NCBI RefSeq assembly: GCF_016859285.1
Contig: NC_053406.1
Location: forward strand, 13,349,026-13,413,025
DNA from: Xiphias gladius
Lineage: Eukaryota; Chordata; Actinopteri; Istiophoriformes; Xiphiidae
DNA length: 64,000 nucleotides
Reading direction: 5' to 3'
A program made the translations under genes and the position numbers. Of this stretch, positions 1,168-54,211 are shown piece after piece. Each line of letters begins with the position of its first letter. Position 1 is the stretch's first letter. The notes under the pieces were generated by a model, which worked only from the letters and a program-made list of their open reading frames with translations, did not search any database and had not been told where the DNA came from.

Positions 1168-1198
1168 GCGTCGCGCCCTGTGGGGGTGGGGTTCTGTG

Positions 1199-1366
1199 AT
1201 GGTAACCATGGTCCCCGGCAGCCGCTATGTCTGCAGCGCTCACACAAGAGAGGAAGACTCCACGAACGACCGTGAGGAGCGAATTTTAGCCGTGCTGGGC
1301 ATCATCGGAACCATCCTCAATCTATTAGTGGTTATATTTGTCTACATCTACACCTCCGTCACCTAA
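1199..1366 (+). CDS. TUNAR-like single-pass membrane micropeptide, copy 1 (55 aa)
   Basis: A 55-codon ORF, ATG 1199 to TAA 1364-1366. It begins MVTMVPGSRY, has a charged stretch with EED and REER (residues 18-28), then a hydrophobic segment (about 29-51) with the core GIIGTILNLL and ends FVYIYTSVT. The core and tail closely match the human TUNAR/BNLN micropeptide (about 48 aa, beginning MV, acidic N-terminus, one C-terminal membrane helix), which is reported to act at the ER on the calcium pump SERCA2. The start has G at -3 and +4. A pyrimidine tract and acceptor-like AG end at 1167, so the CDS probably lies in one exon behind a 5'UTR intron. The frame stays open back to 1168, so an upstream coding exon is not excluded. 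SERCA regulation here is inferred from similarity. Confidence 0.8.
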   Translation: MVTMVPGSRYVCSAHTREEDSTNDREERILAVLGIIGTILNLLVVIFVYIYTSVT

Positions 1367-2211
1367 GGGTTTTCTTGGACAAGAGACGTTGGCAGTGTCC
1401 CCAACTTCTCTCCACACTACACCCACCCTCCTCTTTAAGTATTCATATACTTCGAGGGTTTGATTATGAAGAGTAAACACTGAGATGTGATGATCATTGG
1501 CAGTGTGTTCAGCTGGATAGTAGCCATATATTTATCTACACCTGCACCACTGCTTATCCCTTATGACAGCTTTGCTCCGTTACCTAAAGACTGCTGCCCA
1601 TCACAGAATAGGAGCTACAGGTGGAATCATCTGCACGTCCATTCACTTTTAAAGTCTTCCTTGAGATTTTTTAAAACAATTTCACGTATCCACGTCAAAT
1701 GACCGCTGACAGTCTGTCCAGTCTGGTAATGTGTCCGTAATCATACTGATCGATGATGGTGGAATAATGTTTCTGTGACTGCTTACACAGCTGCGGTGGA
1801 CCTCTTCTGTGTCTTTGATTTGATGGTGCTCATATTTGACTGTGCTGCATCTGACCTTTTGTCTCATAACTCTGTGAAAGTCTATGGCTTCAGTTGCTTT
1901 TTTTCAACTATCTTGCTCCTCTATGAGTTTTAAGACATTGTCACTGACAGTTAAATTTATCAAAATAGTCTGACAAACACAACACTTTGATTTAACTTGA
2001 CCAAATCAGTAGATGGGGAGGGGTGAGACACTGCTAAAATTATACAAGGGACCAAAATCGCCATTTGAGTTATCAACAGAGGGACCCTTAGGGCTATCTG
2101 CTCCCGGGCACTGTTAAATCTACTTGAGCGGAGCATCAGCACAGATGTACAGGTGATCACTCGTTACTGAAGATCTTCATGTAGTTAGTAGGGTCACTGA
2201 AAAAGTTTTAC

Positions 2212-2334
2212 ATGGACCTAATGAGTCCATACCTGAGTACACCAGAGGAGAGATTCCTGGCTGTGTTAGGAGTCATTGGCATTGTACTCAACCTCCTGCT
2301 GCTTGTTTTCGTCTACATATACACCTCCATCTGA
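2212..2334 (+). CDS. TUNAR-like single-pass membrane micropeptide, copy 2 (40 aa)
   Basis: A 40-codon ORF, ATG 2212 to TGA 2332-2334, 845 bp downstream of copy 1 on the same strand. It reads MDLMSPYLSTPEERFLAVLG, then a hydrophobic helix with VLNLL, and ends FVYIYTSI. Against copy 1 it shares EER-LAVLG, the IG..LNLL core and FVYIYTS, so it is a paralogue rather than a chance ORF. The N-terminus is shorter than in copies 1 and 3. The ATG context is weak (T at -3), and the frame stays open to an in-frame TAG at 2182-2184. The real N-terminus may therefore come from an upstream exon; candidate acceptor AGs at 2183-2190 have only a weak pyrimidine tract. It could also be an alternative last exon of the copy 1 transcription unit. 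Confidence 0.7.
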   Translation: MDLMSPYLSTPEERFLAVLGVIGIVLNLLLLVFVYIYTSI

Positions 2335-4401
2335 TGTGTGCACCTCAACGCAGTATCGGTTATGAGATGACTTGCCACACCTTCAGTAACTGCAGCTCTA
2401 CCTAACAGACGGGGGCTTCCATTGATCATATTGTGCAGCAGAGCATGTTCTTCAACCACACATGTATATATTGTACCTAAGAACACCCTGATTCATAGCT
2501 TATTTGGGATTACATGTTATCTTAGGCCGGTTTCTGTGCGAAACAATATAGTGATATTCTTATAATAGTGGGGAACTTGATGAATGGAAGGTGATGAGAG
2601 AATTTAAATGCAAAAGCAGTGAGCTGTTTACAGACTGGTTTATAATAGAAATACACTTCACAAAATACACTTTTTTTTTCTCAGTTAGTGTTTTTGTAGA
2701 TGAAGTACTCGCTCATCTCATGATGTATATGTGCATCATGAGATGTTTACTTAACCGTATATTGCTATAATCAAATACTCTTTATCATGCTTTGACTAAA
2801 ACAACTGATGTAAAACAAATGCCATCTCTGTAGTTCTACATGCTTAATCACCCAGACATGAAAGTGGATGGTGTTGAAGTTTCAGTCTGTGCAGCAACTC
2901 TGCACATTAGCAAAGATCCCTCTGTGGACAGTTGGTACCACAGCATAACGCTGTATATTCTGGTGTCATGTTTCTGTGATTGGATATGTAATCCAGGCAA
3001 AGGGCAGCATCAGAGAGGGCAAAGTGTCGACCTGAGACAGTGTCACACAAATCAAGACACAGCACTTTTGCAGTGCAACACAAAGGAATTCAATAGTAAC
3101 AAAGAAATCAGGGAGAACCAGTGTGGATTGTCTGAAAAAAGAGGACATAAAACCTCTGCACAAGGCCTCACCATCTGTCTTGAAACTCATGAAGGCACAC
3201 AAATCTCCCTGGGACTGGGTTACAACATTTCCGCTGGAGCTGCATGTCACTATGGATATGATTTTAGGTTCAAACACTGTGCCTCTAATGGAGGAGCAAA
3301 CCTAAATGTAGTTGACAAGCGAGCAGGAAGGACTGGCCTGAATCTACACTTCATCCTTGTCATTCTCTTCTCCACCAACAAGCTTACGCCAGAAAAGACA
3401 TAGTACTGAGAGGACCCACATGAGTCTCTGCTGTCATTTCACATAGCACAATACTTTTATATATATAATGCACCCATACCTGTGAAAAGGACTTCATTTC
3501 ATACACCATCAGTCAGAGGTTCTGGGAAAGGCACAACAAAAAGGACCAGAGGAACAGTTTGTTTTCCAAAAATGAATGACCAGCACCTCTGACTGCTCAC
3601 TTAACCTAATGCAATTTTACATGTTGGCTTCTGTGAACAAGTGCTGAGATTTTGATAATCATTGCATAATAAGATTCCTTGTTACATTGTGTATATATGC
3701 TCTTAGTTTTATTATCAGTTTATCATTGAGTGTTTCATTTGGACAAGCTTGCAAGCAAATCTGAAAGCCCCAATGGCCACATTGGAAAATGTTTGGGATG
3801 AACCTCAAATATTTACGGTTCCACTGGCCACAGTCTATTTTCTACTAAGTGCAAGTGTAGAAGGTGCAGATAAGTATTTCCATGGCAATATCTACAGAAT
3901 GCTGGATGAACAAGTGACCACAATTTCCATGCTGGATTAATTAGCTCTTATTACGAAAAGGGTACATTTTTCAGTTACTTGGACCTACTGGACTTGTTGT
4001 AGTTTTGTGGCTTTCCTGTGCAATGAGGAATTATCAGCAATATTACAGTGTGTTCACTTTAAGTTTTACCTCCAAAACAGACTGGGAGCTAATCTGGCTA
4101 AACTGGAGGGTTGTTTACAACCTGTACAGGTATATCTGACAGGTGTCCCTTGGAGCAATGTAGCTGTGTTCTGAGATGCCAGCACTTACAGTGTTATCGT
4201 AACTGCAGGAAGCAGTGGCTCCAGCCCCGATAATAAAACCCAGATTGTTGCAAACCGTATAATTCCTTAAGCCCCACAATCAAGTTTCAACTGTCAAACA
4301 GCTCTTTAAAGAACTGAAAGCCAAAAGGTCTTCACTTTCCAAAAATGTCCTCGCTTACATCTAAAACTCCTACTGGTCTTCACAAAGATAGAAATACAAA
4401 T

Positions 4402-4442
<41 letters not shown>

Positions 4443-4823
4443 TTCTAGCTACTTGCATCTCTCTTCAAAGGTTTAATTTTACACCATCTTTCAGCACACA
4501 TCAGGAGAGTCTACAGTTAGCATGCTGAGATTGATGTGACTTGCACATTTACTTCCTGTCACATGTAATAAGTGCACAGTGGCGTTTGTTGAGCTAAACC
4601 CATGGTAAGCGTGCACCAAAGCAAAGCATGAGCCACCTCCGGTTGGTTTGACATCAGCTGTCAGAATGTGACAGTCAAAGCATACTTTCAACTTTCGGTC
4701 CACTTTGTGTTGCCTCTAAACGGTCACTTGATGTTAGCAAACAAACAGAATGAACAGGCATGCTCAGCATTTTAGCTCAGGTTTACTTAGATACTGGCAA
4801 AGGTTTCATGGTACCACTGTCTA
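2335..4823. other. Non-coding stretch after copy 2 with one unexplained ORF
   Basis: Probably 3'UTR and intergenic sequence. It holds a perfect 12-bp inverted repeat (2714-2725 with 2734-2745), a 187-codon ORF at 2840-3403 that I do not recognise, an AATAAA at 4232-4237 and a (CA)n array at 4402-4439. The ORF has no recognisable domain or biased composition and may be chance. Confidence 0.4.
4402..4439. repeat. (CA)n microsatellite
   Basis: An uninterrupted CA dinucleotide run of about 19 units, read directly from the sequence. Confidence 0.95.
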
Positions 4824-5277
4824 ATAAGGCACCCTTTATAAAAGGTTTATAAGTTGTAACTAATAGCTTTATTAAGGTTACTAAATAATTAATTAATGCT
4901 TTATAGATCAGTTAGAACCCATTAATGAGAACAACTTTTGGGTTGCACTTTTGTTTATCTCTATGTAATAAGGCAGTTTTATAAAGGATTCATGAGTTGT
5001 CACTAATGGTTTTAGTATTGGTTAATAAACCCTTTGCTATCCTTTACTAATGCTGACACCCATGAGCATTATTTAAGTGATTACCAACATTTATAACTGT
5101 ATTATTACCAAAAAGAAAGAATAACTGCAAGCTAAAGGGATTTCACACAAACCGGCAATCATAAATAAGAAAACAATGATCTCTTCTATTTCATGCATAC
5201 AGCATTTGTAAATGATTTATTAACTGTTGTTAAAGCAATTGGTTATTACTTATAAACCCTTTTTAAAGGGTGCCTTA
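4824..5277. mobile_element. MITE-like element with terminal inverted repeats
   Basis: The left end reads TAAGGCACCCTTTATAAAAG and continues GTTTATAAGTTG. The right end (about 5246-5277), reverse-complemented, reads TAAGGCACCCTTTAAAAAGG and continues GTTTATAAGT. This gives about 30-bp near-identical terminal inverted repeats about 450 bp apart around AT-rich, non-coding DNA. A diverged internal repeat of the end sequence lies at about 4967-5030. No clear target-site duplication was found and no transposase is encoded, so the superfamily is unassigned; this is a non-autonomous DNA transposon remnant. Confidence 0.7.
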
Positions 5278-8200
5278 CATGAATATGATACGAGTTTGTG
5301 GGTTTTCAAAGGCCAACGATAAACCTAATATTTTTAGCTGAAAGACATTTATTTTGTGCCAATATTAAATCTTTTTAATATTTTAAATGTTCCTGCCAAA
5401 ATATTTAAATGTTAATATATATTACAAACTCTATAAGGCAGAGTGAAGAATATGTTTAAAAAATAAAATTAGCAAAGAAATAAAATTAAAAAAAACAATG
5501 GTTATTTATAGACTTTCTGTAGCCTTGGTCAGGGAGAAACCTTCATCATGTCAGCAGTCACAGTATTGACTGATCTAAGATTAAAGTTCATTAAGTTGTC
5601 TTACTGTGTATTCTGCATGCACTTAATTTTTTTGGTTGACACCAGTTAACGTGACAGGCCCACTTCCAAGCAGACCAAGGAGAGGAGAGAGCCCACAGGG
5701 TGAGTCCTGGACATCTGCTTTCCCATTGTACACCCACTATACACTACACACTAAACACAGACACACACACACATACACACACACACACACACAACACAGA
5801 CTTTTCTTAACAATGCAACGCAAATATCTCACCCAGCGTCAAAAATACAAAGCTTTAGATTGTTTGTCATTTATTTAATGCCTATTAATTTGTTTTTTAT
5901 TTTTTATTTTACAGTGTGAATAAGCTAATATGTGCAGAAACCCGATGTTATGGAAATAGTCTTTAATGCCAGAGAATAAACAGGTGCATCAGAGTACACG
6001 TTGGACCCCTAACCAATGCCCCAGGCATGGATTGTTAACACAGAACACTGAAAACAAAAGAGCAATGTTCAAAGACAAGACAGGCAAATGTTCATTCTGA
6101 GACTGGATTCAAAAATGTTCATCCTAATTCTGAGCCAGCCAGCGACTGCGAGACAGATTCTCATGTTTTTTTCATGATTCATGAGCTGAATTGATTTTTA
6201 GCCTGAGTGGGCACATTGGACACACACTGTCACTTTTCATTAAACAGCCAGTTACTTCCTGAGAAGGCAGGACCAGTGATTCAAGCAACTGCCAGGTGTC
6301 AGAGAGAACCAGAAATGATCCATTCACCAGAGGTTTGTGTGACATGCTAATTATTTACTGACTAACATTCCAGCACAGTAGCTGCTACAGTACTAATCAA
6401 GCAAACTGTAGATTTGAAATGGGAGGTGTCCAGCATGACTCCCCTACCCATTATGTTTACTTCTATCAGCAAGTGATGAAGTCATATTGTCAAATGAGCG
6501 ATATGATATCCTCTAGCACTGTGTAAGAGCATTATGTCCATTTTTGATGAAGCTGATAAAGAAACAGTTTGTAACAATCCCTGAGATTAACCATTGAACA
6601 AATGCTGTGAGATCTGGTGTACTTTCATGTAATGTTTATATATAATGTATAGTTATAGTAATGCCAATAAAAATGAAAAACAGCACTTTCAGTGTTTCAC
6701 TGTTTGTTCATAAAAATGGCAAAATTGTACTCCTATATAATCAGTTTTGTCAAAAACTTAAACCGTTGGTATTACAGTCTCAAATCCTATGTAGCCCACT
6801 GCCTGGACTTGATATTATTTTGTAATATCTCTCCAACTACACAGATATATACGACCCACAGGAAAACCAGAGATTAAATGAGGCGGCACCACACATTTTG
6901 CGAGCAGAAAGCGGCTCTCTGTGGGTTCACTGTCACTGAGAATTTTCATGAAAATTGAGCTAAAAGTTTGGGAAAGGCCAATTCCTCCTGAATCCATTGT
7001 AGTTAGTTGTAATCCTGACCAGGCTGGGATGAGGTCAGGAGAACTGGATGACAATCCCAACAAAATCTGACTCAAAAAACATCCGAAACTTCTCTTGTTG
7101 GGATTCTAATTTTAACATTACTTTCACATGTCAAAATAAGTGTTCATATAAAATATGAGACTGATTTTGAGGCATTTGCTAACCGGTGTGTTTTGCACAT
7201 CTTTTTTGTGCACTGCATTTGAATAACAAATGAATGCATCATAATTTAGATCCACCTGCCATTATCTGCATATCATTAGGTATACTTACAACATTTGTCA
7301 TGGATTACATGTAATGTGTAGAAAATGCGTAGATTTCTAGAACATACTTCCCATTTTCATTTTCATACTTGTATCACTGGGGATTTTAATCGGGCTACCC
7401 TGACTCATGCCTTAAAACATATCGTGGAGCCTGAAAGTAAGTTCTTTCAGCTGACAAGATAGTGAAGCCGTGTGCTCATCCTAACTCCTCCAAATTCTGT
7501 TTTCTTATTTAGGGAGAATCACTGAAAGTATTTGGAATAACTAAATTAAGGACTAAAAATTTAATCTAGCTGTGTATTCACAGCTTCACTTTTTATCAGC
7601 CGAGATTCAACTTGAGTGCTTGGTGCTGTCGCTGCCTGTAGCTCCTCTGAGGGTTTTTCCTTGTGTTTATTCTCCTGGGTTGTCAGTGGGAAGCATCCTA
7701 ATTCTGCGTTGTCTTAAATGCACTAGCCGCACGAAAACAAGGTTATCACCCAAAAGAGCCGAGCTCCTTTTAAAGTAGTATAGTTACTTTTGCAGACCTG
7801 TGCTGTTGGGCGCAGCCATGTTCAGCCAGCCAGATAAACTAACAATGTGTCCTCAGGCACCCCGTGAGACAGCCACTGACCTGGCTAATGTGGGTGGCAG
7901 CCCCATGCACACACACACACACACATACAGTATATACACACAAAGACTCATACACACCAGCCTATAGTGTCCAGCATACTGTAGATCTGACTACCACTCA
8001 TATGTATGATTTAATAATCTAGTGTCGCTTTCCTCCCTCCCCGTTCTCCCTTACCCCCTGCACTCTCTGTCCTGCAAACATTTATGTTCTCTCCTCTGTG
8101 CCTTGGTCCATTGTTTGCTATGTTCCTATTTTAGTGTTTAGTTAGTTTGCCAGCTCAAGCATGAACCCCATCCCTGGCTCTGGGCCTCAAGCCACTGTCA

Positions 8201-10105
8201 GTGGAACAAGGAAAGATGTTTTATGTAAACAGTAATATAATGTCCTACTTGCCTGTTGAGTGTAACAATTCCCTCCGAAGTTCACCCAGCCTTGAAGGAA
8301 AATACACACTGAGTCACATCGTTTTTTGCTCATGCTACTTCGGATGCACCTAGATCTCTGTTTAATGCACAAGCTAGAGTGTGTCTGGAAAGATCTGAGT
8401 CATTTACATCACATTCCCACTGGCAGAAATCGGAAACTAGTCTCATGACAATATATCACTAACCTTACAATAAGAACACAGTAAACAGGACACAGATTAC
8501 AGTAAGTAGCATCATTGTTGACTGATATGTCAATTTATACAAATCAAGTAAAAAATCCTTAATATTCTTGTCCAGGAAGACGTAAAGGCTCAAATCTTGT
8601 TATTGAATGTTGACCGCCATTCAGATATTTATACCCATATCAACATTTAAATATATCGTGCTTATGTAAATAGAACAAAGAATGATATATTTCGTAGTAA
8701 GACTTCCTGAGTAATGACAATTAAAACAGTAATTGATAGTTAAAATGCAATTGTATATGCTACTAAAAAGCAGAGATCTACTCAGTAAAATACTTTCAAA
8801 AATGTAAAGTACTATCAGAAATCATATTGCTCGGGTTTTTTCCTTTACAAAAATCGATGGGTTTGCAACTTTACATTTACAGGCCATCAGTATTAAGTCG
8901 TTGATACTGCTATTTGACAGTCAACATGTTGATAGTACCATTTAGTTTCCTTTAGAGAAGAGGATGAGATTATTCAACTGCATGTTTCCATTTTCTGTTA
9001 TTTTAGCTTAATTTCATTATAATCGGGAGTGATTGGAAGGATAGGAGGATGTGCAATAATCATCATCATTGACGTGGTGCTGTTTTTCCTTGTCATTGAT
9101 TACATTGATGTTTCAGTCGTAATGGTGTTTCATTGTTTGCCCTCATTCCAAATTACTTATCACTCAAGAAGCCCTCAAAGCCTGGAGCTCAGTCAGCACG
9201 GCTGGGACTGAGAGATACACAGACAGACACACACACAAAATGGAAAGAGAAACAATAGATATTAGGGGGATTGGCTCAAAAGCTGGTCCCTCAAATGAAG
9301 ATCGCTGTTTCTCATGTCCCGGTGAGAAACAGTGTAATCCAAAAGTCCTGCAATATATCCGACCTTCATTAAGGTTATGATGTTTAGTTTTGTTGAAAGT
9401 GATTTAGAGCGGTGTTTTGGAGGATGCAACAGTATCTTCAGAGATTTGTCATCATTTGGTAGCATGCGCTTTAAAGCAGAGGATGTGAATCTAACTTGTG
9501 TTACAAATGATTACTGAGAGTAGGATTTATAATTTAACCCTCTTATTTCAGTTTGGGGTAGCAGTAATCAGACAATATCCCTTGTGGCTTTGAATGAGCA
9601 TTTTTTTCCTGGACCTAAAGCATATGTTTTCTAAATAATTTACAGGCTAATTAAGTCATGTTATTATTTGCATGGACTAAACCCGTGGTATGAGATGACG
9701 AATGAAGGAGATTCATTACGACCATAACTATCACTTCACCTCTGCCCCGCAGCGTTGCCTATAATGAAGCCTCAGTGGATCTCCATTATCAAGGCTGTCC
9801 AATGGCAAACTCTCTGCTTCTCTGTCTGCTTTAAAAATGATGGATGTGAATTAGCACTGCACTGCGTGGGTGTGTATCTGTTCATTTTAGATTCATATTT
9901 TTAAGATGAACAATGAACAGTGATGTAATATGAAAACTAATTCCCTAAAGTAAATTGGAGTAGTCTGACATGACAGTGTCTGCTAGTTTTAAGTACGATC
10001 AAATTTTTCTTTATCTCCGTAAAGAGATTTCACATTGTCTCCTCGCAGACACCTTCAGATACAAGGGGGCAAATCTTCACTTCAAGACACAGCAATAATC
10101 AGAAT
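5278..10105. other. Intergenic, no gene recognised
   Basis: About 4.8 kb of AT-rich DNA with no ORF that looks like a real protein on either strand. It contains short interrupted (CA)n runs at about 5760-5792 and 7908-7926 and scattered AATAAA. It separates micropeptide copies 1 and 2 from copy 3. I see no RNA gene or clear mobile element in it. Confidence 0.5.
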
Positions 10106-10114
10106 GCGCACACA

Positions 10115-10184
<70 letters not shown>
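10106..10184. repeat. (CA)n microsatellite directly upstream of the copy 3 promoter
   Basis: Starts as CACGCGCA-type sequence and is pure CA from about 10119 to 10184. It abuts the TATA-like and CRE motifs of the micropeptide copy 3 promoter candidate. Confidence 0.95.
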
Positions 10185-10186
<2 letters not shown>

Positions 10187-10210
10187 TATAAGAGGGCGCT
10201 AGTGACGTCA
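10187..10210 (+). promoter_or_regulatory. Candidate core promoter of micropeptide copy 3: TATA-like box and CRE
   Basis: TATAAGAG at 10187-10194 is followed by the full palindromic CRE TGACGTCA at 10203-10210, about 390 bp upstream of the copy 3 start codon. A full CRE suggests CREB/ATF input, which would suit a neural or endocrine gene. If the TATA-like box is used on the plus strand, the CRE lies between it and the start site, which is atypical, so the start may lie elsewhere nearby. Motif evidence only. Confidence 0.4.
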
Positions 10211-10598
10211 CCACAAAGTACATGAGGCCTCTTCACTCCCTCAGTAACATTACCCACTGGACACACACAGATGCAGCTACGAACCAACTATGTGTGACCT
10301 GACACAGAAATAGTTACTGGGCAGCTGAGCAGCTTCTTGGCCTTGTGGGACAATGTGTGCCTTCAGACACACAGCTGAACAAAACAGCATCTCTTTATTC
10401 TCTCATTTATTACAGACCTGTGGTTCTCTGGAGCCCTGAGAGAAGAGGATAAAGAAGACTTAAAACTCTTGAGTGTTAGCAGTGGTGCCTGAAAATTGTC
10501 ATCCCTGTGAATATTTGGATATATTTGTTTTGGGACTGGACAGGATTAAGGTTGAAGTAGTTTTTGACTTCGCTTTGAGCCAGTTGGAGGAGTGAGAG

Positions 10599-11646
10599 AT
10601 GGAGCCCACCACGGCAACAGAACTGAGAGGAAAAAGAAACAGCAGGGAGGTAAATTAAAAAAAAATAAAAAAAATTCTTTAGCTCATCAGAGCAAAGATC
10701 AATTTTTAATTTACTGATTTACTGTATCACTTTATTAGACAGAGAGAACTAAATAAAATAGAATACCTCTCACTATCATGTGTCTGTAAATAATTTAGTC
10801 ATAATTATTATTTATTACATTAGATATAACACATGCTGTATATTACACATATGTACATACTGTATGTGGGACATAAAATGTGAGCACTTATGGACCTAAC
10901 TGCAAATGATGGAACTGAATAGAACAGAGTCAAATAGAAGAAAAAAGAATGCAATGATATATAATATAACATTATCGTAATAATCTCTCACCATGAAGTG
11001 TCTGTGAATTGCACATAACTTGTGCTGCATATCAAATAGTAAAGATTTAATACGTGCAGGATATTGCACATACTTATGTCGTAGATAAAATGTGTGCACT
11101 CACTGTTTGTAGCTGCAAATAATGAACCATAGTAGAACAGAAAACAGTAGAGTATCTCTGACTGTCACCTGTCTGAAAATCAATTAAACATTACTTATAC
11201 ATTACACAGGACATGACACATGTATTAGACGTACTCGTATGCACATACACTATGTGCGCAGATATGGACTCGACTACAGTTGATGGAACAGAATAGAACA
11301 GAACAGAATAGGTTTACTGAGAGGATGCCAGAAGAGTAAAGAGCAGTTTTCTGGGTAATGTCATGTCTGTATCAGTGGCGCCATCTGGTGCGTGAATCAT
11401 GTCAAGACACAAATTGTAACCTAATATCTCCTGCTCTGAGCGCATGACTGTGAATTCTACACGCTGGCCACATGCTTTTCACCTCTCTGTCTTTGTCTCT
11501 TTTAGTCGGCTGATCCTGTAAATGTGCTTCCTACATCAGCCCGATGCAAAGTGGACCCCGAGCACATGCTTGGCATTGTGGGCATTGTTGGAACAGTCCT
11601 CAACCTGCTGGTATTGGTGTTAGTGTATATCTACACACCCGTCTGA
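10599..11646 (+). CDS. TUNAR-like membrane micropeptide, copy 3 (63 aa, two exons)
   Basis: CDS join(10599..10649, 11506..11646). Exon 1 encodes MEPTTATELRGKRNSRE and ends at the donor GAG|GTAAAT (phase 0). Exon 2 starts after a pyrimidine-rich CTCTTTTAG acceptor at 11505, encodes SADPVNVLPTSARCKVDPEH, then a hydrophobic helix (about residues 38-60) with GIVGTVLNLL, and ends LVYIYTPV. The membrane segment and C-terminus match copies 1 and 2 and the vertebrate TUNAR/BNLN micropeptide; the N-terminus is basic rather than acidic. Splice phase and frame agree exactly, which supports a real gene. AATAAA at 11825-11830 is a likely poly(A) signal. The gene is tail-to-tail with bloc1s3. A role as an ER/SERCA-type regulin is inferred from family resemblance. 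Confidence 0.82.
10765..11310. repeat. Three diverged tandem repeats in the copy 3 intron
   Basis: Units share landmarks such as CTCTCACTATCATGTGTCTG, CTCTCACCATGAAGTGTCTG and CTCTGACTGTCACCTGTCTG near 10768, 10984 and 11155, and GGAACTGAATAGAACAG-like strings near 10910, 11124 and 11283. Spacing is about 215 and 170 bp. An old, eroded tandem triplication with no coding content. Confidence 0.6.
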
Positions 11647-12285
11647 CATGTCCACAGACAGGTTACTGTGTGGATTCATGGTAAAGCTGTTCAATGGATG
11701 GATTGACAGGTAGAAGGAAGGGACGGATGTTTGGAACGCACGACTGTGTTTTAGCAATACAACATAACAATACAAAGGCCTTTGTAGTCTTGTAGTCAAC
11801 AGTGGGCAAATTGTTGAGTCTGTGAATAAAAGTGACATATTTTTGCAAATTCCACCTGCAGTTACTGTTCGTGTTATTTACAGCTTCAGTCAGCTTAGCA
11901 ACATTTTTTTTTTCATGCAGGTTTTTTGAAAATAAATTTATATGAATTCCCAATCAGTGAACCATCAGGGCAATTTGTTACTGAGTTTCTTTTATTTTAC
12001 AATTTTAACACACGGGGAACAAAAAAAGAAACTAAAATTAAAATTATAGCATGAGAAACTTCCTACTGGCCTATCACCTTGGACACCAAAGGTAGAAAAT
12101 GATATGCCATATAAAAATCAGCTCAGTGTTTAAGATATTACATTGAGATATACTGACATTTACAGAGTACTGCAGGGGGAAAAAAAAAACAAAACTAAAT
12201 ATTGTCAATTAATTCCTATGTAAAATGCACGCCAAAATGTAATCCTGGAAGAGAGGTGCAAAACATGAGATGACAGAACATGTGT

Positions 12286-26257: not shown

Positions 26258-29200
26258 CTAAAGGCAGAACCCAGTAGCATCCTCAGGAACAGAGAGCTGA
26301 CTGAATACAGCCAGGCGTCTGCCGCTGCCTTCATTAATGCCACCGCAAGATTCTGAGCCACTGAGTGAGCTAGCAGAGCTGCTTCCATCTTGGTCCTGAT
26401 CTGACAGAGAGGTGTAGGACAGGGATCGGGCACCCAGTGGCCCTGAAAAGACCCCAGTAGCACTGGGACTCTGCCTCAGGGAAGGGGAGTCAGTCGGAGA
26501 AAGCCCACATGGAGAGCAGCCGGAGTCTGGGGAAGGCAAGAATGGAGACCGGGGATCTGTTGCATTGGCCTGGCCCACTGGGGGTTGGTGCTGAGGGGAA
26601 GGGGAGGCCTCGAAGGCAGAGTCCATCTCCAGGAAGGCATGAGAGAGGAGGTCAGTGATGTCAGCGCAGGAAGGAGGAGAGGCTGAGGGAGCAGATGTGA
26701 AAGAGGCGGTGGCAGGAGGAGGATGAGCAGTGAGGGCATGCTGAATGGCTTGCTGAGGAGCAGAGGGAAACCCAGCAAAGCTGAAGCTCTGTCTGACGAG
26801 AGGAGGTCTGTGTGTGTGAGAGGAGCAAGGTGGCTGCTGGGGAATGCTTGAGGAGGAGGAAGAGGACGAGGAGGAACGAGAGAAGGAGTGCTTCTTTTCT
26901 TCCTCACTGTTGTGGACAAAATGGCAGCGGATCCCATAGGGGCAGAAACCGATGGTGTGAAACGTACGACACGGCTCAGTTTTGTATTTTGGATGCCTGC
27001 TAAGATCCCGCAGCTCCTCTGGCCCGTGAGCAAACTGGCACTTCCCACCATACTTGCACAACCCATTCTCGGTGAAAGAACGGCACAGTTCAGTCTTATA
27101 GCGTGATGAGGAAGAGGAGGTGGAAACAGATGATGTGGATGAGGAGGAGCTAGTGTTCAGTGCAGTGGGGCTGATGTCTCTTTGGGAGTGCTTTATGTCA
27201 GTCCCGGGCCAGCCTAGACTTGCTGCTGCAGTGCTGCTGGTCTCTACCATGCTGACGGAACGCTGGGCAAGGAAGCCTGACTTTCCCCACTGGGAGGAAT
27301 TAGCTAGCAGGGAGGGCAGCGGGCTCTCTGACTGCTGCCCCCATTGGCTGGAAGTCAGAAATACACTGTCTGAAGGGTCAGTGGGGAGACAGGAGAGAGA
27401 CGAGAGGGAAAACGATGTGTTGCCACGTGGCTGACCGATGTAACCTGGTGTTCTCATAGCCAGACTGAGGGATGGTAGCGGTCTGTTTGACTCCCTCAGG
27501 TCGAGACTGAGTAACTGCTGTATAGACAGACAAGAACAGACAACAACACAACATTAGCCCATAACTTTTACAATGAATATCCGGTGATTCATTTTCAAAA
27601 ATCACTGCGGGATGTTCTTTGTCCAGTGATTGCACTTGTCTATTAACTGACATGTGTTGACAGAAACTACAGAACAATTGAAACACAGTTGTGCTTTTTT
27701 TTACATAACATTTTATGTTTGTGAGTGTGATTTCTGGTAGGTATTACTTGAAATATGAGGGTTTTTTTTGTGTCTGGCACCCTGAATAAATTTATGTATA
27801 AAGAACTGAATTTAATGGATACTAAATATTGTTGTACAAGAATATACGAAAAATGTGAACTTTTGCCAAATGTTCAATTTTTGTGAACTTCTGTCAACCC
27901 CTACAGTGTTTTGTTTTGTTTTTTGTCATGTGATACAGACGCAGATGAAGTTAGCTATAGGTACTTCAGTCAGCAATATGTACAGTGTGACCCACCCTCT
28001 TCTGTTTGTATTTTGATCATCTTAATGTTGTCTAGTATAAATTTCCTCTCAGGGCCTAACAGGCATCGATTGTCTTATGCAAACAGCCATAAGACAAAAA
28101 TGAAGATTCAGAAATAGATAAGAGCACACTCTGATGCAATACTCAAGGCAGAGCAGTAACGCTGTAAAACCCAGTGTGGTAAACCTTGACTGTACAGTAC
28201 TGTATTGGCAGAGGAGTAGTTAAAACCCTGATGTGCTTATCTCGGTGACCAGCTATAGGACTGTTCAGACTGGCCACAACAATAAGCTGAGTTGAAAATT
28301 GAAACAACAACAACAACAACAACATCTGAATTGCTGCTACACAGCTGCGGTTCTTTTAAAAACTTGCCAGATGCATTTGCAGACTAACAGCTAACCACCC
28401 GTAATTCCTGCACAAACTGTATCAAAATCCAGCAACAATCTTTCCTACCTTTTTAAATCCACACTTAACAAGACCTCCAAGGTTCAACCTGGCATCCTAC
28501 ACATACTTGCATCTTCTATTGAGATGAAAACAGGTAAGCACGACTTACAGCATGCTGCTATACACCGCAGTATAGTACAGTTAAAGCCCTCGTCATCATA
28601 AAATAATGATAATAATAATAATGGTAATAATAAGGATAATAATAATAGCATTGCATTACTTGCTTTAATTCCCAGTTACAGAGTTAAACATCTCCTTGCT
28701 GTCAGCGCAGCCTGACAACTGCGACTAGCAACTTTTGGTTGTTTTTAAGCACAAAAAGTTCCGGTTGTTTACGGGGGTGTTTTGATTCAACCTGTTGGCG
28801 TCGTCTACCGTTTGCAAGCCACCGATATCACTTGTAACCTGCCAGGTCACCAGTGGTGGCAGATTTCTAGCTAAACTAGTTCAACTCAGACTCAACGACC
28901 GGGCTGGCTAATAAGTAGGCAGTTTAATGGGCCCATGCTGCGATGAACTGTAACACCAGCCTCAACGAGGCTCCCACTTTGAGACAAGTTATCCTCGGGT
29001 CCGGACTAACTTTCAAATCACATAAAACCCTCGGGGGCTCGATTAAGCCCCTGGTTAACAACAAACAGTTAAAACACCGCAGCTAGAGACTCAGCTAAAA
29101 GAAGGTGACTGGAACAGATGAAGAGAGCAAACAAGCGTAAAGTTAGCAGAGTAGCTAGCTAAGCTAACATTAACCCCTCCACTGACCTAGCCGATTTTTG

Positions 29201-35095: not shown

Positions 35096-35935
35096 TTCGC
35101 TCTTCTGGACAGAGACCTCAGATGTTGTACCCAGAATCTTTTCTAGCTCCTCTTTCAGCCCTTGGTATTTTTCGATCTTCTCCTGTTCCTTCTTCTTGAT
35201 GTTGCTGTCGCTTGGGATCGCTACCTCTATCACTACTGCCTTCTTCTGTTGTTTGTCGATCAACACGATGTCTGGTTGGTTAAGCCATCACCAGTTTGTC
35301 AGTCTGGATCTGGAAGTCCCACAGGATCTTGGCTTGGTCATTCTCAACCACCTTAGGAGGTGTCTTCCATTGTGACCTTGGGACCTCCAACCCATACTCA
35401 GTGCAGATGTTCCTGCTCACTATGCCAGCCACTTGGTTATGGCATTCCATGTACGCTGTTCCTGCCTGCATCTTACACCCTTCTGCTATGTGCTGAACTG
35501 TCTCAGGCGCATCTTTGCACAGCCTGCACCTGGGGTCCTGTCTGGTGTGGCAGATCCCCACCTCTATTGATCTTTTACTGAGTGCCTGTTCTTGTGCTGC
35601 CATGATTAGTGCTTCTGTGCTGTCCTTCAGTCCAGCCTTTTCCAGCCACTGGTAGGATTTCTTGATATCAGCCACTTCTTCTATCTGTCGGTGGTACATG
35701 CCCTGTAGGGGCTTGTCCCTCTATGATGGTTCCTCCTACTCTTCTGCATCATCGGGTTTCTGGTGCCTGAGGTATTCACTTAGCATTTCATCTTTGGGAG
35801 CCATCTTCCTGATGTATTCCTGGATTTTGGTTGTTTCGTCCTGGACAGTGGCTCTGATGCTCACCAGTCCTCGGCCTCCCTCGTTCTGCTTAGTGTACAG
35901 TCTCAGGGTGCTGGACTTGGGTTGAAACCCTCCAT
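35096..35935 (-). pseudogene. Non-LTR retrotransposon C-terminal fragment (degenerate)
   Basis: Minus-strand reading from about 35935 gives GGRGLVSIRATVQDETTKIQ, then IEEVADIKKSYQWLEKAGLK, a zinc-knuckle-like CRLCKDAPETVQHIAEGC (CX2CX7HX4C), YMECHNQVAGIV, KILWDFQIQTDK and KAVVIEVAIPSDSNI. This is the C-terminal region of a LINE-type polyprotein common in fish proteomes. The CCHC and following acidic/lysine motifs suggest a restriction-enzyme-like endonuclease class (R2/R4/Rex6-like), but that assignment is tentative. Two in-frame TAG stops lie near 35722-35740, and about 30 residues seem deleted between EELEKI and LGTTSEVSVQKS. No reverse transcriptase domain is present. Dead fragment. Confidence 0.75.
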
Positions 35936-52320: not shown

Positions 52321-54211
52321 TTAGTCAGACAGGGACAGACGTTCAAACACAGTGAGCCTCTTGGTTGCCGATCCATCGAACGTTGGAGACTCGGTTCCAC
52401 TGGAACCTCCGCTGGAGCTGCTGTAGCTGTCCTCCAGCGAGTCCTCAGACGAGAAACGCTGGAGTCCAGCAGGCTTCATGAATGCTTCGTGGCCTCCGGT
52501 ACCAGGAAACAGCATGCTGCTGTCCTGGTGGTGCCCATCCTCCTCCATGCTGGTGAAGACTCTGCTGTTGTTGCTGTTAAAGTTATTTCCATGGCCACAC
52601 ACACAGCGGGAAGCCTTTGGCTCCAGGATGAGAGGAATGTTGTGGATGTCTCCAGTGCTGGCACGGGTCTGATGGTTGCCAAACTGGAATGCTGCTGCCT
52701 CCCGCTGCAGGGAGTCAGCAAACACTGGGGAGAGGAGATCAGCGGGGGGTGGAGAAACTGAGGGAGCACGGCTGAACCCCAGGTTAGGATCATTGAGGGA
52801 TGATGGGAATGATGGAGGAGATGAGCTGCGTGAAGAGCCCAGGAACCCAGCAAAGCTGACACTCTGGCGGAGCTGGTGGCGTGGATTCTGGCCGCTGGGA
52901 GCTGTGGGAGTTGGCTGCCGCTGATTAGGGAACTTGGCAGATGGTAAAGGACCTCCGCTGATTTTCTCCTCATGGATGAAGTGGCAGCGTGAACCGTAGG
53001 GGCAGTAGCCAAAGTTGTAGAAGGTTCTGCAGGGCTCTGTCTTGTACTTGGGGTGGCGATACAGTCCTCTCAGCTCTGCCTCGCCGTGGGCAAACTGGCA
53101 CTTAGTGCCATACTTGCAGCTTCCGGTCTCCTGGAAACCACGGCACAGCTCAGTCTTATAACGGTTAGAGGACAGCACCGGTGGGACCTGGGCCGCGAAG
53201 GTAGATGAGGGAGGGAAGCCTGGCGGGGGAGCCACAGTGGTAGCAGGGACAGAAGGAAAAGCCTCCAGGTTCTTCAGCTGTGCGAAGGAGGAGAGCAGGC
53301 TGCTGCTGGACTCGGTCAGGCTCATGGAGCGGTCGGGCCTGAAGGGGAGCTGTTTCAGTTTGGAGACGGGCGCCTGGCTCCAGATATTGGATGACCAGAA
53401 AGGGCTGCCATTGTCGTCACTGTTAACATGCTCGGTGCTCAAGCTGTGGCTTGAGGATTCGGGAGGGGAGGGGGGAGAAGAAGGAGGCTGACCGGTTCAG
53501 CCGACTCTGCCCTGGGACTTTGATTTGAGGCTGTGTCGGGAGTAAGGCATCATCCAGGGCCAGGTTCAGAAAGTTCTGTGAAAGATGATTGAAGAAGGAG
53601 TTACTATACAGACATCCATACTCCTTATTTTGAACTAGATTTGTGGAATATTCATCATTTTCCTTTTAGCAATAGATAACTTATTTAGATAATAGGTTCA
53701 TATTTAACGTCTTTAAAATTTTAAATTAAATTTTTCCTTTAACTTAAAAAAGGGGAAATTTTCAGAGAATCCTTGCATCCAAAGATGTAAAACAGTCATT
53801 AAGATGATAAAAATCTGTACTAGATGTTATAAAACCTTTATCTTCCGTTTACATGCAATCATAACATACAAATGAAATGTAGGTAATTGCAGACTTTTCT
53901 ATTTCTCATGAATATTCTGACAGTGGAAGATAGGAATTCAAGAAAAGAATTCATTAGCTCTTTAAACTAAAGGAAGCCTCTTGTGGCTACACGGAGTTTA
54001 AAAGGAGATTCTCTGTAAAATGTGCGATTCACAGAGGAATAAAATGAGTCAACAAAAAAAAAAAAAAAAAAAAAACATTTTGGGAAAAGAGTTACAGAGC
54101 TAAGCCACTTCAACCTCATGAAGCCTTTTTCTTTCCAAAACAAAAGAAAAAAAAAAAACCTCCTAAACTTCGACTCACCTTCGTGAAGATGTCGTCAAGC
54201 ATTTCGGACAT
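52321..54211 (-). CDS. zfp36: ZFP36 (tristetraprolin)-type mRNA decay activator with apparent 1-bp frameshift
   Basis: Exon 1 (54179-54211) encodes [11 protein letters not shown] with donor AAG|GTGAGT. Exon 2 (52321-53575) follows a TTTCACAG acceptor and starts in phase 0 with [13 protein letters not shown], then [12 protein letters not shown]. That frame stops at 53423-53425 after 61 aa in total. The rest of the protein is in another frame: [25 protein letters not shown] (MK2-type site), two CX8CX5CX3H fingers with [10 protein letters not shown] and [28 protein letters not shown] and the C-terminal CNOT1-type motif [12 protein letters not shown]. Spliced length is 3n+1, and the shift maps to 53461-53496, most simply the C6 run at 53470-53475. 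Without the extra base the protein would be about 428 aa. It binds AU-rich mRNAs and promotes deadenylation. A sequencing error is a live alternative to a true lesion; the first in-frame ATG after the break (53325) would give 334 aa with both fingers. Confidence 0.88.

Follow-up and report, generated by a model that had tools for sequence, protein, structure and literature searches.

A predicted cluster of three TUNAR-family microprotein genes in the swordfish genome

Introduction

Human TUNAR (also named pTUNAR or BNLN) is a microprotein of 48 amino acids (aa) that ends in a membrane helix and a VYIYT tail. In the portions of the sources available to us, mammalian pTUNAR is described as a membrane protein of the endoplasmic reticulum (ER) that co-precipitates with the calcium pump SERCA2, which it activates, and speeds calcium clearance, whereas another group linked it to SERCA3 and to reduced calcium re-uptake (PMC8758570; review PMC12733331). 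Here, we describe a cluster of three neighbouring plus-strand genes predicted from their sequences to encode microproteins of the same family. The cluster is located in a 64,000-base stretch of DNA (G000:C7:13349026-13413025; 0 N), referred to below as the window, of the swordfish (Xiphias gladius) assembly, which comprises 691 Mb in 1,298 contigs. All three gene products (copies 1-3, in their order along the strand) share the C-terminal membrane helix and VYIYT tail of TUNAR. They differ from TUNAR in lying on a chromosome other than those of the two canonical-looking genes of this genome, in having N-termini unmatched by the family profile and, in the case of copy 3, in a coding sequence apparently split by an intron.

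Other described systems provide further points of comparison. Zebrafish megamind (linc-birc6) is a member of the TUNAR family and, in the available part of the report, is called an ortholog of mouse Tunar (PMC5300904). Its likely counterpart in swordfish is a BIRC6-linked gene on chromosome C11, whereas the three window genes, on C7, have no BIRC6 nearby. The regulins, listed in the accessible text of a review as phospholamban, sarcolipin, myoregulin, endoregulin, another-regulin, DWORF and the sarcolambans (PMC8396278), are short single-helix membrane peptides, as are the window peptides, and pTUNAR also binds SERCA, according to the part of the report at hand (PMC8758570). Finally, Drosophila Sloth1 and Sloth2 are two small peptides that, in the available text, are encoded by one bicistronic transcript and act on mitochondrial complex III (PMC9681215). 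Likened by gene layout alone, they offer a model for the production of copies 1 and 2 from one mRNA.

Results

Three TUNAR-family coding regions in the window

The original prediction held that three plus-strand coding regions of the window share nearly the same membrane helix and tail. When the whole window was scanned in six frames with a 21-aa core, using the reversed sequence as a control, copies 1, 3 and 2 scored 89.0, 87.0 and 86.7, respectively, compared to 27.3 for the next, unrelated match and also for the maximum in the reversed sequence. The three copies are far above this background, and chance resemblance was therefore rejected. Each peptide carries a single C-terminal membrane helix, with Kyte-Doolittle 19-residue maxima near the C-terminus of 2.83, 2.99 and 2.72 for copies 1-3, and the VYIYT tail is present in 3 of 3.

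The resemblance of this core to TUNAR/BNLN, likewise proposed at the outset, was confirmed with the 48-position Pfam profile of the TUNAR family (PF21954; curated cut-off, 27 bits). The profile matched copy 1 at 2e-15 (56.9 bits, profile positions 17-47), copy 2 at 3.6e-10 (40.0 bits, 20-47) and the spliced copy 3 at 1.8e-8 (34.5 bits, 21-46); in the genome-wide search, the same copies received 55.7, 37.8 and 33.7 bits. Thus, TUNAR kinship of all three copies is firmly supported at the sequence level. The matches extend from just ahead of the helix through the tail and do not take in the full length of the profile; such a partial match bears on orthology, not on family membership. A microbial origin was considered as well and rejected: a scan of genome contigs with copy 1 yielded 594 matched stretches, 0 of which encoded a relative.

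The part of the peptide that precedes the helix is variable, with 28, 15 and 38 residues and a net charge (K+R minus D+E) of -2, -2 and 0 in copies 1, 2 and 3, respectively. Copies 1 and 2 have in common an EER-x-LAVLG motif at the start of the helix, and their N-termini are therefore not wholly unrelated. Accordingly, the initial description of N-termini that differ completely, with a basic one in copy 3, has to be withdrawn on both counts.

Predicted gene structures

The coding sequence of copy 1 (1199-1366, plus strand) is an intact open reading frame (ORF) of 55 aa, with a second in-frame ATG at 1208. Its coding exon is predicted to start at 1168, behind an AG acceptor, leaving 31 nt (1168..1198) 5' of the ATG. 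This acceptor ranks 23 of 816 AGs by a simple splice score, based on consensus frequencies and applied to the first 12.5 kb of the window; an AG with a higher score is located at -304. Copy 2 (2212-2334, plus strand) is also an intact ORF, of 40 aa. Copy 3, on the same strand, is predicted to consist of a first exon of 17 codons (10599-10649), an intron of the GT..AG type (10650-11505, with the GT donor at 10650) and a second exon of 46 codons plus stop (11506-11646), which is in phase 0 with the first exon and holds the membrane helix. Among 705 GTs the predicted donor takes rank 4, and among 816 AGs the predicted acceptor takes rank 8. Thus, of the ORFs of 55, 40 and 63 codons originally listed, the first two are intact as described, but the 63-aa peptide of copy 3 would be the product of a two-exon splice (17 + 46 codons), not of a single ORF. 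A pattern scan found AATAAA at 11825 and 11931, so that the 3' end of copy 3 may be located at 11825..11936.

Five family members on three chromosomes

The genome-wide search with PF21954 scored 14 candidates, 5 of which were above the cut-off, with 0 internal stops. These five places are distributed over three chromosomes of 27.9-29.4 Mb each: one on C10, one on C11 and the three window copies on C7. The C10 gene (G000:C10:16510375, plus strand) encodes a 48-aa peptide matching the entire profile (88.5 bits, positions 1-48), and the C11 gene (G000:C11:27651242, minus strand) a 49-aa peptide matching positions 11-48 (65 bits). Both look canonical; the locus in the window differs from the canonical-looking TUNAR locus. 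In each of these two genes, the best local acceptor lies 39 nt before the ATG, and the occurrence of an acceptor just before the ATG in the C10 gene, the C11 gene and copy 1 speaks for copy 1 being a gene built on the same plan. Across all five peptides, one E, followed by L, G, G, L-N-L and V-Y-I-Y-T, is invariant. Thus, TUNAR, usually treated as a single gene, is a small family in the swordfish genome. The initial suggestion of a family of three in one locus holds for the 64-kb window but falls short for the genome, with its five places on three chromosomes.

Protein-level constraint

Over 27 aligned codons of the five genes, base changes are concentrated at third codon positions. For each of the 10 pairs, we placed the same number of base changes at random 20,000 times and counted the simulations with no more amino-acid changes than observed. 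The count was 0 of 20,000 for C10-C11, C10-copy 1, C11-copy 1 and copy 1-copy 2; 1 for copy 2-copy 3; 43 for copy 1-copy 3; 49 for C10-copy 2; 62 for C11-copy 3; and 74 for C11-copy 2. Taken with the remaining pair, C10-copy 3 (see Discussion), the counts show protein-level selection clearly in copy 1, well in copy 2 and less strongly in copy 3. The estimated nonsynonymous (dN) and synonymous (dS) divergences were 0.13 and undefined, respectively, for copies 1 and 2 by NG86 (0.16 and 1.9 by YN00), 0.32 and 1.7 for copies 1 and 3 by NG86, and 0.35 and undefined for copies 2 and 3 by NG86.

DNA similarity among the window copies coincides with the coding sequence, extending at most 9 nt beyond the stop codon, in one comparison; other DNA matches among them are short or lie in simple repeat. 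Between the window copies and the C10 and C11 genes, matches were found inside the coding sequence only. A young duplication with shared flanks was rejected, given that no flanking DNA similarity was found in the stretches compared.

Chromosomal context and age of the C7 locus

About 77 kb separate the C10 gene from an ORF for which the B2 bradykinin receptor is the best relative of solved structure (4.1e-81), and bradykinin receptors are, we assume, the neighbours of human TUNAR at 14q32.2. No bradykinin receptor was seen in the ORF list of the window itself. The segment C10:16580000-16609999 (L027-L029) contains at least five ORFs that resemble seven-transmembrane receptors by eye, of which one is bradykinin-receptor-like and a further two have a 7tm_1 match. 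On C11, the TUNAR-family gene and BIRC6 are about 39 kb apart, and BIRC6 was placed by family search at C11:27611854-27612826 (two exon matches; the only BIRC6 place found); three pieces of L010 taken by eye for exons of BIRC6 or its neighbours had no Pfam match. Also on C11 are five THADA-type matches (22.93-22.95 Mb) and, at 23.04 Mb, a ZFP36 relative, a proximity that presumably also holds at human 2p21. With these five matches on C11, the assignment of the window to the 2p21 (THADA/ZFP36L2) region was dropped.

On C7, the only places found for MED29 and PAF1 are at 15.69 Mb and 19.58 Mb, respectively; we take both genes to adjoin ZFP36 at human 19q13.2. The window itself contains two ZFP36-family coding exons on the minus strand, one at 26258-27553 (zf-CCCH, 1.1e-19; closest among solved structures to Butyrate response factor 2, 1rgo, 5.5e-34) and the other at 52321-53496 (zf-CCCH, 1.9e-20). 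These two genes, about 25 kb apart on the same strand, are distant relatives, 39% alike over the aligned part. In total, ZFP36-family relatives were found at 7 places: three on C7 (the two window genes plus a relative at 29.16 Mb) and a single one on each of C11, C10, C4 and C12. The presence of a ZFP36-family gene on each of C7, C10 and C11 fits three sister regions derived from the early vertebrate duplications.

In a tree of 30 columns that included human pTUNAR, the C10 and C11 peptides and the three window copies, human pTUNAR was grouped with C10 and C11 (96/99), apart from the window copies. Over the same 30 residues, copies 1, 2 and 3 differ from the human peptide at 8, 13 and 15 positions, respectively. 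This tree, inferred from short sequences, fits an older split of the C7 lineage and cannot prove it. Together, context and tree suggest that the C7 locus is a third ancient sister locus, matching human 19q13, that was later tripled in tandem.

Other features of the window

Repeats of the (CA)n/(TG)n type are frequent in the window (for example, at 10104-10202) and yield His-Thr or Cys-Val ORFs that are not genes. A retrotransposon-like fragment is present on the minus strand at 35280-35720, with a weak zf-RVT match (20.6 bits, under the cut-off of 27.5). ARAGORN found no tRNA in the window, and a structured RNA was rejected as a candidate, with no Rfam match in the window at gathering scores.

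Discussion

We consider it likely that the three window copies are genuine TUNAR-family genes, clustered in tandem at a locus other than that of canonical TUNAR; the cluster would descend from the early vertebrate duplications and encode ER peptides that tune SERCA. The data show directly that the copies belong to the family, that their reading frames are intact and that they are constrained at the protein level, copy 3 least so, and they show how the genes are laid out and in which chromosomal context. We infer the splicing and expression of the genes, the age of the split, and the ER location and SERCA binding of the peptides. In the scenario we favour, the early vertebrate genome duplications would have left a third TUNAR copy on a 19q13-like chromosome, the other two being those on the 14q-like TUNAR chromosome (C10) and on the 2p-like megamind/linc-birc6 chromosome (C11), and the C7 copy would then have been duplicated locally into three. 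Each product would be a single-pass peptide in which a divergent N-terminal part is followed by one C-terminal helix and then by the short tail, VYIYT-x. By analogy with mammalian pTUNAR, the peptides may insert in the ER membrane, bind SERCA-type calcium pumps via the conserved helix and adjust calcium uptake. The residues fixed in all five peptides would be the best candidates for contact with the pump, whereas the differing N-termini, the likely regulatory part, could together with the transcript structures set the tissue and the strength of the effect. Diverged regulation of a shared membrane partner, as initially proposed, is plausible.

Several observations weigh against this reading. 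In the gene models, copy 2 has a weak start context (T at -3 of the ATG) and no good acceptor immediately 5', the best score being 1.1, at 2192. In the constraint analysis, 1,025 of the 20,000 simulations for C10-copy 3 had no more amino-acid changes than observed, indicating weak constraint. The tree rests on 30 residues, leaves the order among the window copies open and places copy 3 on a long branch. As for the chromosomes, the window is 2.3 Mb away from MED29 and 6.2 Mb away from PAF1, so that synteny is at the level of the chromosome only, not gene by gene; C4 and C12 each carry a ZFP36 relative without a detected TUNAR gene; the top-scoring THADA-type match is on C19, not C11; and the locus comparison depends throughout on the human gene order assumed above. 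The domain of SUPT5H, a third 19q13 marker, was also not found in the swordfish genome, but neither was it found in any of the 14 control genomes, and its absence is therefore uninformative.

The window copies might instead be recent teleost-only offshoots of the canonical gene that reached C7 by ordinary duplication, a possibility we regard as doubtful. Fast change after duplication could likewise place such copies outside the TUNAR clade, and the two 19q13 markers are megabases away; yet each of C7, C10 and C11 carries both a ZFP36-family and a TUNAR-family gene, as expected of sister chromosomes, flanking DNA similarity to C10 or C11 was not found, and the acceptor just before the ATG of copy 1 is unlike what a retrocopy would have. 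It is unlikely that the cluster is a single transcription unit, in which the helix would be encoded by three alternative 3' coding exons, or by consecutive cistrons, and splicing would join different N-termini to it. All three helix-coding stretches do fall on one strand and within 10.4 kb, a plausible acceptor precedes both copy 1 and copy 3, and copy 2, which begins 845 nt past the stop of copy 1, lacks a good acceptor and is not separated from copy 1 by a poly(A) signal (no AATAAA/ATTAAA before 4232), an arrangement that would allow the two to share a 3' exon. However, this gap in poly(A) signals falls short of significance (1.9 expected, P 0.14), copies 1 and 2 are separated by 15 ATGs and each start at an ATG of their own, and for copy 3 a separate first exon with an ATG is predicted.

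It appears quite improbable that at least one of the copies, copy 3 being the likeliest, has ceased to be translated and is decaying. Divergence from the human peptide is greatest for copy 3 (15 of 30 residues), which also depends on a predicted splice and has the weakest constraint, in the comparison with C10 cited above; against decay, its helix exon is free of stops, the hydrophobicity of the helix is kept (19-residue mean, 2.72), the splice signals are good and in phase, and its simulation counts are low in the comparisons with copy 2, copy 1 and C11. A locus that acts as a long non-coding RNA, with incidental peptides, is hardly credible: TUNAR/megamind was first described as such an RNA, according to the available part of the report (PMC8758570), but in the stretches compared only coding sequence is conserved between loci, and the Rfam search of the window was negative. 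We return, then, to a tandem cluster of genuine TUNAR-family genes as the preferred reading.

The original prediction further spoke of a regulin family, a designation that does not survive the motif comparison. The xLFxxF motif common to regulins is absent from pTUNAR, as stated in the part of the source available to us (PMC8758570), and LF..F occurs in 0 of the 5 TUNAR-family peptides of the swordfish genome, on which ground regulin membership was rejected. A profile of the three copies, compared with the PDB, gave 5 weak matches up to E 10, the best at E 0.0038 (cadherin-1 entries), with 0 regulins. Thus, the peptides may work like regulins, by analogy with pTUNAR, whereas the statement that they are regulins is not supported by their sequences.

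A search of the open-access literature, to the extent available and with subscription journals and genome annotations outside its scope, turned up neither a TUNAR cluster nor a second TUNAR locus in any vertebrate; automatic pipelines may already have predicted such genes. The expansion of a known microprotein family is real and somewhat surprising, and there is a fair case for a separate ancient locus. If that case holds, TUNAR would be a family with three old branches and five members in the swordfish genome. In a bolder version, which we judge distinctly unlikely as a whole, fish have kept, as a tandem triplet, a third TUNAR lineage that dates back to the early vertebrate duplications, and copies 1 and 2 are made from one mRNA, which would be a vertebrate counterpart of the two-peptide insect transcripts.

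The coexistence of a BIRC6-linked and a bradykinin-receptor-linked gene in one genome means that the orthology of megamind and mouse Tunar, as presented in the available part of the report (PMC5300904), would need rechecking: megamind may be a sister gene (ohnolog), rather than an ortholog, of human TUNAR, as would follow from a third lineage of that age. Redundancy among the family members could then help to explain why, in the accessible text, a zebrafish megamind mutant is reported to have shown no function (PMC6347452). Finally, N-termini that vary over a nearly fixed helix would provide a set of peptides for probing what decides whether the pump is activated, as reported with SERCA2, or its uptake reduced, as reported with SERCA3 (PMC8758570).

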